Assembly (NCBI RefSeq): GCF_001456935.1 | Contig: NZ_KQ758482.1 | Coordinates: 662,249-726,248, forward strand | Source: [Bacillus] enclensis | Lineage (GTDB): Bacteria; Bacillota; Bacilli; Bacillales; Bacillaceae_B | Length of the DNA: 64,000 bases | Direction of reading: 5' to 3' | Shown: in pieces, positions 20,572 through 54,024 of the stretch | Position numbering within the stretch: position 1 is the stretch's first letter | Layout of the letters: each line of letters begins with the position of its first letter | Translations under genes and position numbers: made by a program | Notes under the pieces: generated by a model | Seen by the model: only the letters and a program-made list of their open reading frames with translations | The model's database searches: none | Told to the model about the DNA's origin: nothing

Positions 20572-20870
20572 AAAAAAGTCCCCTATAAGCACAATAGTAT
20601 TGTGCTTATAGAGGACGATGCTGACCGCGGTGCCACCTCAGGTTGGAGTAAGAAACTTACTCCCTCTTCTTTTCGAATACGGGGTCATGAAAACCCGATA
20701 TTCTATCCTTATAACGGAGGAAACCCGTATGACCCTACTGCATTGTTCAAGTCATCTCTCATAAGTCCATTCATCTTAAGCTATCCTGCCAGGGTCTCAC
20801 CTTTCCCGGGCTCTCTGTAAAGCTTCACTTAAGCTTACTACTCTTATTCTTCGATTTTCACGATTAAGTT
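20572..20870 (-). promoter_or_regulatory. T-box riboswitch 2 (tryptophan), proximal to trpE
   Basis: On the reverse strand there is a Stem I region with GAAGAATAAGAGUAGUAA-like elements and a specifier loop GAAUGGACUUAU containing UGG (Trp). The conserved T-box sequence AGGTGGCACCGCGG is at 20625-20638. The terminator hairpin at 20578-20616 ends in TTTTTT. Uncharged tRNA-Trp would favour the antiterminator and transcription into trpE. Confidence 0.93.
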
Positions 20871-20876
20871 TTTTGA

Positions 20877-21168
20877 AATAAAAAAAGGGCATCCCTATCC
20901 TTATAAAAAGGACGGGATACCCGTGGTGCCACCTTTGTTGACTGCTTCTCGCAGTCCACTCATCCGCATCGAAGCCGGCCGGCTTGAATGCGTGTCTTTT
21001 GTAACGATAAGACATTCGCCAAAGCCTACTCTCCCTAAAGGATTTCGGTTTGGAGGCTCGGAAGTCCATTCCCTGACGCATCCACACTGGTTCACACCAC
21101 CCACCAGCTCTCTTCAGTGTCTGCAAAAGGTACTCCTCTTCGTCGAAGCCGTTCGCTCATTGAATTAT
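20877..21168 (-). promoter_or_regulatory. T-box riboswitch 1 (tryptophan), distal to trpE
   Basis: The first of two T-boxes in series. It has GAAGAGGAGUACC and GGUGGUGUGAACC Stem I elements and a specifier loop GGAAUGGACUUCC with UGG. The T-box sequence AGGTGGCACCACGG is at 20921-20934. Its own terminator (GGGTATCCC...GGGATGCCC, 20887-20922) is followed by TTTTTTT. Both units read the same codon. Confidence 0.93.
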
Positions 21169-24189: not shown

Positions 24190-24322
24190 AAAAAGACAAT
24201 CCCGGATTCTGCACTCCGGGATTGTCTTTTTGCAATTTATTAAAGGGGGGTAATCATGAACCATTCTCCAATATAAAAGAAAGAGGGGGAAACTCTTGTG
24301 TTTTTAATTGAGAATGATTTTC
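24190..24322 (-). ncRNA. Candidate Fur-regulated C-rich small RNA (FsrA-like)
   Basis: A promoter on the reverse strand would start an RNA near 24322. The RNA has no real ORF (only a five-codon MITPL) and contains two single-stranded C-runs (CCCCC opposite 24285-24289, CCCCCC opposite 24245-24250). It ends in a 16-bp terminator hairpin (24191-24206 with 24215-24230) plus a T-run. The total is about 130 bases. A Fur box overlaps the start. This is the build of Bacillus FsrA, an iron-sparing small RNA that pairs through C-rich loops. Identity with FsrA is inferred. Confidence 0.65.
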
Positions 24323-24357
24323 AATATCATTGTAATTCTTATCAACTTCTTTGTCAA
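24309..24357 (-). promoter_or_regulatory. Promoter with overlapping Fur box
   Basis: On the reverse strand a perfect TTGACA (24352-24357) and TACAAT (24329-24334) are 17 bases apart. TGAGAATGATTTTCA (24309-24323) matches the 7-1-7 Fur box TGATAATNATTATCA at all but two positions and covers the start site, a typical repressor position. Confidence 0.82.
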
Positions 24358-25118: not shown

Positions 25119-25268
25119 AAGAACCACTCCCTGCTTTCCATAAAGTCATGAATTTTTAAATCACGTCGGATCACTGGAAGGAAATATTTGGTGTCAACAG
25201 AAAGGAATTGTGGTAAAATTCTAAATTGAAATAAAAATATAGATAGAGAAAGATTGAGGGGGATTTTG

Positions 25269-26819
25269 GTGAAAGAAAAACTAAAGTCATTCGGTGTACC
25301 TTTATTAATCATGCTTCTGCTGATTGGTGCGCTATTTATCCACCAGTTACTGGAGGTCAAGAAACAGCCTCAGCCTGATTGGAGCCGTTCGGTACCGCTT
25401 GGTTTCACTTCTGAAGAACGCCCGCAGGCATTCTTCAATGATGATACCCTTTTCCTGACTGACAACGGAAAAGTACATGGGCTGAAATTCGATGAACAAC
25501 TGAATCTCCAGGAAGATTCTGCAGTGAATACAAAAATTACAAGGGGAAATCCTTTCTGGACTGATGGATCCGTCTTCATCCAAAAGAAATCAGACCGTCT
25601 GGTTGCAACTGAAAATAATAAAGATACCGTCATCACGCAAGAAGTGGACGGCATTAGCACTGGAAAGGAACGGGTATATTATTGGAGTAAGAATGAGCTT
25701 TTTTCATTGAATACAGCTGATTTATCCTATAACAAGATACACACGTTCCCAAAAGATATAATGGAGATTTATCAAGGGGATAATGGCAGCGCGATTGTAC
25801 AGGTTCATCAAAATGATGCGAATGCTGTTCTACAGTATATGGATGAAAACGAACAAATAGTAGGGGATCCTTTTGCATCGGTCAAAATCTCGACTAATCA
25901 ACACATTGACGGTTTGACCTATGGGGTGAAGGATGACAAGATGACCATCCTTTACAATGAACAGATGAGGGCTCAGGGTGCTTTAAGTTACAAGATATTA
26001 AAGCTGCAATCCCCACTTCAGGAAATTGGAACAAAGACACTCAAACCTGAAACCCTTTCATTTTTAAACGTTGATTCCGGAGAGAAGCTTCAAGGACCCC
26101 GATCTGCTAAATTGGTGACCATTGAAGGCAAGCCCTCTGTGTTATTCACTTCAGAAGGCCACAAAGCCAGCGATCAAAACTCGGTACGTGTATACCTGGC
26201 TCCCCTAGAAGATGAATCACAACTTGATGCAAAAACAATCGGCACCACCAAACATTATTCTTACCTGCCTTTCCAGTTAAACTCGAACAGCATTGCCTGG
26301 CTGGATTACGGCGGGGATACGTATGAATTATTCGGTGCATCTAAAGACCCGACAATGATTTCGGCAAGCGTCGAACTGAATAAAAGGAGTGTTAAGGAGG
26401 CTGTGAATAACACTGTAATGATGATTTTCAGCAGTGTCATAACGATCCTGATTTCCTTCTATTGGGTGCTGCCATCTTTGTTCCTGTTGATCGTTTTATA
26501 TATGATCAAGCCCAACATCTTTGAAAAAGACGGCATTAACTGGGTCGAATATGCTTCTATCCTGATCTTTTTGATCATGCCCCTTACATTCATGGGCAAG
26601 GCATTGAATGGATATTTTTATTTTGCAGCCCCGGAATACCTCACCTTTACCGGGAGCGGATATGTAGGTGTCACGGTCATCAGTCTGTTGACCGCTCTTA
26701 TTTGGAAGTTTGGACGAAATCCTGACTGGGGTACGTTCGGTGGAGTCTTTTATTTCATGGGGGTATATATCCTTCTCTATGTCTCTTCGTTCGGTCCATA
26801 TGTCTTCAATTTATTTTGA
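25269..26819 (+). CDS. Membrane-anchored protein with extracellular domain, function unknown
   Basis: A 516-residue protein: one N-terminal span (about residues 7-26), a long beta-rich extracytoplasmic region (30-375) with repeating blade-like segments (RVYYWSKNELFSL, PSVLFTSEG, SIAWLDYGG), then four C-terminal spans. The middle part looks like a beta-propeller. I do not recognise the family. The start is GTG at 25269, 6 bases after AGGGGG; an extended -10 (TGGTAAAAT) ends at 25219. The gene is monocistronic. Confidence 0.65.
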   Translation: MKEKLKSFGVPLLIMLLLIGALFIHQLLEVKKQPQPDWSRSVPLGFTSEERPQAFFNDDTLFLTDNGKVHGLKFDEQLNLQEDSAVNTKITRGNPFWTDGSVFIQKKSDRLVATENNKDTVITQEVDGISTGKERVYYWSKNELFSLNTADLSYNKIHTFPKDIMEIYQGDNGSAIVQVHQNDANAVLQYMDENEQIVGDPFASVKISTNQHIDGLTYGVKDDKMTILYNEQMRAQGALSYKILKLQSPLQEIGTKTLKPETLSFLNVDSGEKLQGPRSAKLVTIEGKPSVLFTSEGHKASDQNSVRVYLAPLEDESQLDAKTIGTTKHYSYLPFQLNSNSIAWLDYGGDTYELFGASKDPTMISASVELNKRSVKEAVNNTVMMIFSSVITILISFYWVLPSLFLLIVLYMIKPNIFEKDGINWVEYASILIFLIMPLTFMGKALNGYFYFAAPEYLTFTGSGYVGVTVISLLTALIWKFGRNPDWGTFGGVFYFMGVYILLYVSSFGPYVFNLF

Positions 26820-53692: not shown

Positions 53693-53788
53693 AGATTGGC
53701 ATGACAAATAAACATATTTAATGATACTATTCAGAAAAATCCAATCAATATGGTTCTCTGCTTTCCCATCAATAAATACTGCCTTTCC

Positions 53789-53921
53789 TTCTCCCATCCA
53801 GACTATCACTGTCGGCTTTGGAATTTCACCAAATCCACCGTCTGACCTTAGTCAGCCGGGTCACGGACTGAGAGCTCTTTGCTCATCACCGCCGGTAGGG
53901 AATTTCACCCTGCCCCGAAGG
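53789..53921 (-). promoter_or_regulatory. FMN riboswitch (RFN element)
   Basis: On the reverse strand the classical RFN blocks appear in order: CTTCGGGGCAGGGTGAAATT, CCCTACCGGCGGTGAT, AGTCCGTGACCCG, GACGGTGGATTTGGTGAAATT, CCGACAGTGATAGTCTGGATGG and GAGAAGG. It senses FMN and controls the rib operon. A possible extended -10 (TGATAGAAT) lies upstream at 53944-53949. Confidence 0.97.
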
Positions 53922-54024
53922 AAACCATATTCGATTAACATTATTCTATCATAGTTTTCTACCAGAGTTCACTTCTGATACTCATCTCATTAAAAATTTG
54001 AATCATTTGGACCAAAAAATCAAA

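Follow-up and report, generated by a model that had tools for sequence, protein, structure and literature searches.

The reverse strand of the window (the 64,000-nucleotide stretch of [Bacillus] enclensis DNA that was analyzed) probably encodes a conserved, Fur-repressed small RNA, which resembles IsrR rather than FsrA and would block the translation of iron-enzyme mRNAs via its C-runs. A promoter, a Fur-like operator, C-runs and a terminator were confirmed at positions 24357–24190 (Table 1). In its passages on this subject, a 2026 review describes IsrR as being without homology to iron-regulated RNAs elsewhere, including those of the related Bacillales, and interprets this as evolutionary convergence (PMC13343841). 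That Bacillaceae contain a family of the same layout, and the isrR locus of a second genus a bridging form, makes the question of IsrR convergence directly testable. If the reading is true, those Bacillales that lack a detected FsrA gain a candidate iron-sparing regulator, and the gene is an example of one sequence constrained as both DNA operator and RNA stem. In the titles and abstract beginnings of the open PMC papers listed, neither this RNA nor an IsrR relative from outside Staphylococcus is mentioned.

Architecture of the RNA Gene

The two promoter boxes agree with the consensus at 11 of 12 letters, and this promoter ranked top of the 10 promoter-like sites found between 23500 and 25000 (shuffled sequences: mean of 4.1). 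The 15-mer TGAAAATCATTCTCA deviates by two mismatches from the 7-1-7 Fur consensus. Since 33 Fur-like sites with at most two mismatches were found versus about 15 expected in the 1.6 Mb scanned, i.e., 36% of this genome, the Fur box alone is no proof. A segment lying about 40 nt downstream is complementary to the operator; thus, the same letters can serve as DNA operator and RNA stem.

Table 1. Features of the small RNA gene in the window.
Feature	Positions	Strand	Basis and remarks
Sigma-A type promoter, TTGACA-17-TACAAT	24329..24357	-	Sequence; within 3 mismatches in 42/42 loci; -35 box 24357-24352, -10 box 24334-24329
Fur-like operator TGAAAATCATTCTCA, over the predicted start site (RNA 5' end)	24309..24323	-	Sequence, conservation
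Predicted small RNA, ~133 nt	24190..24322	-	Fold, conservation; ends inferred from promoter and terminator
H1 stem, 5' arm, inside the Fur operator	24310..24319	-	Pairing in the alignment
Inner hairpin AAGAG-UUUCCCC-CUCUU, displaying C-run 1	24281..24297	-	Fold, alignment
C-run 1	24285-24289	-	Inside the inner hairpin
H1 stem, 3' arm GAGAATGGTT	24259..24268	-	Alignment
CAUGAUUACCCCCCUUU, C-run 2 plus CAU	24242..24258	-	Sequence, alignment, predicted pairings
C-run 2, six C	24245-24250	-	Sequence
Intrinsic terminator	24190..24231	-	12/19 pairs with compensated changes

The terminator consists of a 17-pair inverted repeat with trailing T's on the minus strand. In the pattern scan this repeat appeared on the plus strand only, probably because the T's of the minus strand were counted into the stem. 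The 133-nt RNA was predicted to fold with -41.3 kcal/mol (z = -6.2; equalled by 0 of 200 shuffles), while the 92 nt upstream of the terminator, folded alone, yielded a z of -1.8. The fold stability comes chiefly from the terminator, and the 92-nt part is modestly better than shuffles. At gathering level, Rfam showed no RNA family at 24190–24357. The strong promoter, the Fur box over the start site and the long terminator hairpin of the original prediction were all recovered, and its proposal of a C-rich RNA gene with a Fur-like operator and with promoter and terminator of its own, overlooked by ORF-based annotation, was supported.

Elsewhere in the window, Rfam identified tandem T-box leaders at 20608–20860 and 20905–21155 (minus strand; 135.3 and 120.2 bits) and an FMN riboswitch at 53782–53926 (minus strand; 117.1 bits).

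Conservation in Rossellomorea

A 191-base DNA query matched in all 36 Rossellomorea genomes, some of the matches being short. The covariance model R2, built on 25 long forms, detected the RNA in 35 of the 36 at E ≤ 0.01; as 25 of these genomes had supplied its rows, the independent matches amount to 10 of 11. In the remaining genome (G011), model R3 gave E 0.028 at the same place as the DNA match. R2 and R3 replaced a first model, R1 (29 rows), in which three short forms disturbed the alignment so that nothing but the 5-pair inner stem was retained.

The locus was read in 33 of the 36 Rossellomorea genomes (all except G011, G019 and G033). The 15-base Fur box was identical and the loop run read CCCCC in all 33. 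The promoter lay within three mismatches of the consensus in all 42 tabulated loci, i.e., these 33 and nine others. C-run 2 comprised at least five C in 29 of the 33, was reduced to CCC in G013 and was absent from three short forms of the R. vietnamensis type; two genomes (G010, G012) carried compact forms of the RNA. Loss of the C-runs in close relatives had been named in advance as evidence against the RNA; both runs proved to be conserved, the first in all 33 and the second in most, and the RNA withstood this check.

In the 25-sequence alignment, 99.2% of the cells of H1 and 100% of those of the inner hairpin were paired. No two-sided changes were found in either of them; the changes in H1 were one-sided only, probably because the operator fixes the 5' arm. 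The terminator exhibited compensated two-sided changes at 12 of its 19 pairs in the same alignment.

Genomic Neighbourhood

The neighbours of the RNA gene were compared in 37 loci, with about 1.5 kb on each side. Genes for DUF997 and PanF followed downstream on the same strand in 27 loci and were not found there in 10 (G013, G014, G015, G016, G027, G034 and four outside Rossellomorea), and six loci had none of the query genes on either side. The ywaF-like gene (TMEM164 family), beside which the RNA had originally been placed, is an incidental neighbour, lying upstream of the RNA in 7 loci only. Since the neighbours vary, the RNA gene is tied to no single one, as would be expected of a free-standing trans-acting RNA. 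Synteny with isrR via a PAP2 phosphatase (37% identity to PgpB) was considered and rejected, since order and strand differ.

The divergent gene at 25254–26819 (plus strand) encodes 521 amino acids and had no Pfam or NCBIfam match. In 20 of 23 genomes, its G-rich ribosome site reached a predicted pairing energy with the RNA of -19.7 kcal/mol or lower, a figure without a control for G-rich sites generally; the gene is a possible target.

Comparison with FsrA

The RNA had originally been likened to FsrA, which works together with FbpA, FbpB and FbpC. This identity was not borne out. With the Rfam model RF02273 (FsrA; cut-off of 80 bits), nothing above the cut-off was found in this genome or in a scan of the window; its best place in the genome, with 28.7 bits, was a different locus. 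Among 299 genomes of the order, 7 had an RF02273 score over the cut-off, and these share a single genus code. The covariance comparison with FsrA, proposed along with the identity, gave nothing significant either: at the seven FsrA loci, R2, R3 and a profile without the Fur box all lacked a significant match at fsrA, the best R3 match overlapping it reaching 11.7 bits (E 2.5).

FsrA of the B. subtilis group has its Fur box upstream of the RNA, whereas the operator here lies inside the predicted RNA; FsrA also has a short 5' hairpin and differs in sequence and fold from the Rossellomorea RNA. According to passages of PMC12871923, FsrA is 84 nt long, compared with about 133 nt here; a shared trait is that both are Fur-linked with C-rich segments able to pair with ribosome sites. 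The same passages claim FsrA homologues across Bacilli, Staphylococci and Listeria, a spread not seen with the Rfam model in the genomes covered here.

RsaE/RoxS (RF01820) is likewise described, in the sections consulted, as having C-rich anti-Shine-Dalgarno motifs and as occurring in Bacillales and staphylococci; it is described as regulated by nitric oxide (PMC4409812), and the Rossellomorea RNA scored 19.1 bits against a cut-off of 79. Weak Rfam matches to microRNA families were taken as hairpin artefacts.

Probable Relationship to Staphylococcal IsrR

IsrR is induced by iron limitation and represses iron-enzyme mRNAs. The Rossellomorea RNA is likely a distant relative of this RNA, which has been described so far in staphylococci only. 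As depicted in parts of PMC9410917, IsrR (S596, Tsr25; RF02578) has a Fur box at the start site that forms the 5' arm of a long stem, a C-run in the apical loop, a C-run after the stem and a terminator. The same layout was found here: one C-run sits in the loop at the tip of a long stem near the 5' end, a second follows that stem, and the terminator comes last. As far as these passages go, IsrR differs in length (174 nt versus about 133 nt), in the number of C-runs (three versus two) and in having two Fur boxes, one at the promoter and one after the start, versus one conserved box at the start site. Its locus lies between arlR and pgpB, whereas the Rossellomorea RNA has other neighbours.

That the tsr25 model of Rfam represents IsrR was confirmed by name in portions of PMC9410917 and PMC13343841. 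This model scored 22.7 bits here, below its cut-off of 63. Its best matches in the Rossellomorea genomes lay elsewhere, with one of 36 genomes matching at this locus (13.3 bits), and among 250 genomes of the class it scored over the cut-off in 14, which belong to a single genus. Downstream of the -10 box, the isrR loci have the Fur box TTGAAAATGATTATCAAT, the left half of which pairs with a later TCATTTTC; a C-run occupies the loop, and in most of the loci CCCCTTTTATA comes next.

R3, which contains neither staphylococcal rows nor the terminator, recovered isrR on the correct strand at each of the 10 Staphylococcus loci (17.0–34.2 bits); at one of them (L103) the opposite strand scored above isrR. 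Over 23 whole genomes, its two best matches were isrR (E 1.7e-4 and 0.0026). The unfiltered R3 score of isrR exceeded that of the best other listed place in 8 of 10 genomes (not G514 and G610), a rough comparison because the whole-genome search scored 150 candidates per genome. With R2, other places in whole Staphylococcus genomes ranked above isrR. The profile without the Fur box had no significant match in the ten Staphylococcus isrR loci (best 4.7 bits, E 0.59); by this measure, much of the R3 score at isrR comes from the Fur box. As to sequence homology, the R3 matches and the second-genus RNAs described next speak for it, and the R2 ranking and the profile without the Fur box against it.

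When R3 was run over 40 genomes of the staphylococcal order, two genomes sharing the family code of Staphylococcus under another genus code were detected, G534 (E 0.003) and G492 (E 0.006). Their RNAs (loci L245 and L246) are located between pgpB and arlR, the interval in which isrR is reported in part of PMC9410917, on the opposite strand relative to pgpB compared with Staphylococcus isrR. They have two Fur-like boxes and share the outer stem with IsrR, but their inner hairpin AAGAGTTCCCCCTCT is that of Rossellomorea; it is followed by 5 or 6 C plus GCCC and then a terminator. The C-loop hairpin is the same as in Rossellomorea over 15 bases. In a search of 18 loci, the profile without the Fur box found this hairpin in both genomes (E 0.0045 and 0.0068), and for each of them 0 of 400 shuffles matched as well. 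A bridging RNA at the isrR locus offers moderate evidence of common descent with IsrR, the bridge being two genomes of one genus and about 15–20 nt.

Alternative Explanations

It is rather unlikely that an iron-sparing RNA arose here independently of IsrR, with shared selective pressure leading to convergence in the Fur operator at +1, the stem and the anti-Shine-Dalgarno C-runs. Such an origin would agree with the finding that, without the Fur box, Staphylococcus isrR is no longer matched significantly, with the different gene neighbourhood and with the IsrR papers, which in the relevant passages treat such RNAs as unrelated (PMC9410917, PMC13343841). It fits poorly with the identical order of parts and with the RNA of the second genus, which at the isrR locus carries the Rossellomorea inner hairpin, detectable without the Fur box. 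That the gene is a diverged FsrA orthologue is highly improbable: the Fur-like operator, the unpaired C-rich segments, the place of GltAB among the FsrA targets in parts of the literature and the claim of widespread homologues (PMC12871923) favour it, but RF02273 stayed below its cut-off, the position of the Fur box and the fold differ, and none of the three models was significant at the seven fsrA loci.

The downstream DUF997-panF operon suggests that the element might be its Fur-controlled leader or attenuator. We give this very little credence, as the operon was not found within about 1.5 kb in 10 of the 37 loci, a strong terminator lies in between and the C-runs directed against ribosome sites are conserved. 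In most long forms, an AUG after a GAGAG-like sequence precedes C-run 2, as if a short peptide (MITPL or MKNPLY, for example) were encoded by a small mRNA; a coding role is nevertheless exceedingly improbable, given predicted peptides of 5 to 27 residues, C-runs varying in length from 5 to 7 and no such AUG found either in the short and compact forms or in G013, G111, G137 and G341. A Fur operator with a two-way terminator and no functional RNA would accord with the fact that no transcript is known to us, yet neither Fur binding nor termination requires the C-runs, the inner hairpin or the H1 3' arm, all of which are conserved; this explanation has next to no probability.

Turning to kinship with IsrR, it is quite possible, though somewhat less likely than not, that IsrR is not a staphylococcal invention. 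An ancestral iron-sparing RNA of Bacillales, with a transcribed Fur operator forming the stem that presents a C-loop directed against ribosome sites, would then survive in Rossellomorea, several related families and staphylococci, and FsrA would have replaced it in the B. subtilis group.

Related RNAs in Other Families

R2 and R3 revealed related RNAs in eight genomes with five family codes: f19 (G053), f26 (G341, G103, G187 and G237), f27 (G061), f30 (G137) and f38 (G111). These relatives were drawn from the matches examined as loci, as distinct from lower-ranked weak ones, and four of them (G061, G137, G111 and G341) were added to R3 as rows following their detection with R2. In f26, all four genomes retained the Fur-box stem and the C-loop; a second C-run and an evident terminator were not found at their loci, and the distance from the -10 box to the operator was larger where tabulated. 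The f26 members are the least certain relatives. The copy in G237 was printed on the strand opposite to its C-run, and L077, L092 and L124 showed different stems around the C-run. At the f26 loci L121 and L124, both H1 arms resemble Fur boxes; these genes may carry two operators 55–70 bp apart.

The R2 matches L080–L091 and L093 outside the genus were dropped as terminator-like or as lacking a Fur box with C-loop, and the R3 matches L123, L127, L128, L130–L133, L247, L248 and L250 because they showed a Fur box alone, an inverted repeat alone or neither of the two. A cobalamin riboswitch (118.4 bits) adjoins the RNA homologue at L076:1120–1317 (minus strand).

Predicted Mechanism and Targets

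In the presence of iron, Fur would cover the start site, and the RNA would be made when iron is scarce. H1 would then hold C-run 1 in its apical loop and leave CAUGAUUACCCCCCUUU free, and the two exposed C-runs would keep iron-enzyme mRNAs from being translated. The reverse complement of CAUGAUUACCCCCCUUU reads as an ideal ribosome site, i.e., AAAGGGGGG, 5–6 nt and AUG; CAUGAUUACCCCCCUUU could thus cover the Shine-Dalgarno sequence and the start codon together. Its spacer letters vary among the relatives, and the distance stays at 5–6 nt in the long forms.

Pairing was predicted for 1365 sites in 1.6 Mb (36% of the genome), using duplex energies that ignore mRNA structure. The predicted targets include glutamate synthase GltB and GltD (ranks 14 and 4), dihydropyrimidine dehydrogenase PreT and PreA (ranks 35 and 9) and, more weakly, MiaB. 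The genes of GltB, GltD, PreT and PreA, four Fe-S genes from two operons, stood among the 40 best sites; with the C-runs kept and the flanks shuffled, a mean of 1.3 Fe-S genes was obtained and at least four were reached in 1 of 100 shuffles, although three genes of the Fe-S set had entered it because of their high rank. NCBIfam was applied to 40 of the 43 best-ranked sites, the other three being duplicates or crossing a stretch border. In addition, 27 genes with iron-type motifs were collected, 21 of which were named with NCBIfam; 15 were kept as Fe proteins (GlcF and a radical SAM protein among them being below the NCBIfam cut-offs) and 12 were dropped. These 15 were not enriched, 19 of 100 shuffles being as good, and the ferredoxin-motif genes alone (5 of 1365) showed no enrichment.

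For MiaB, a published IsrR target according to part of PMC11448259, the predicted pairing spans the Shine-Dalgarno sequence and the start codon, at rank 170 of 1365. Of the 29 relatives whose start could be read, 7 retained the AGAGGGGG of the gltB site; the gltB pairing is not genus-wide. Because of the picks by high rank, the lack of enrichment in the motif set and the rarely kept gltB site, the targets are given as predictions; target prediction favours some Fe-S genes (gltB, gltD, preT and preA) and is not decisive.

Five genomes (G015, G016, G019, G033 and G034) have a distant GltB only (33% identity), and the three of them whose loci were examined (G015, G016 and G034) carry the short RNA without C-run 2. 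Two Fur-like boxes, at G000:C1:54748 and 54853, precede a YumC-like gene, presumably that of the ferredoxin-NADP reductase YumC.
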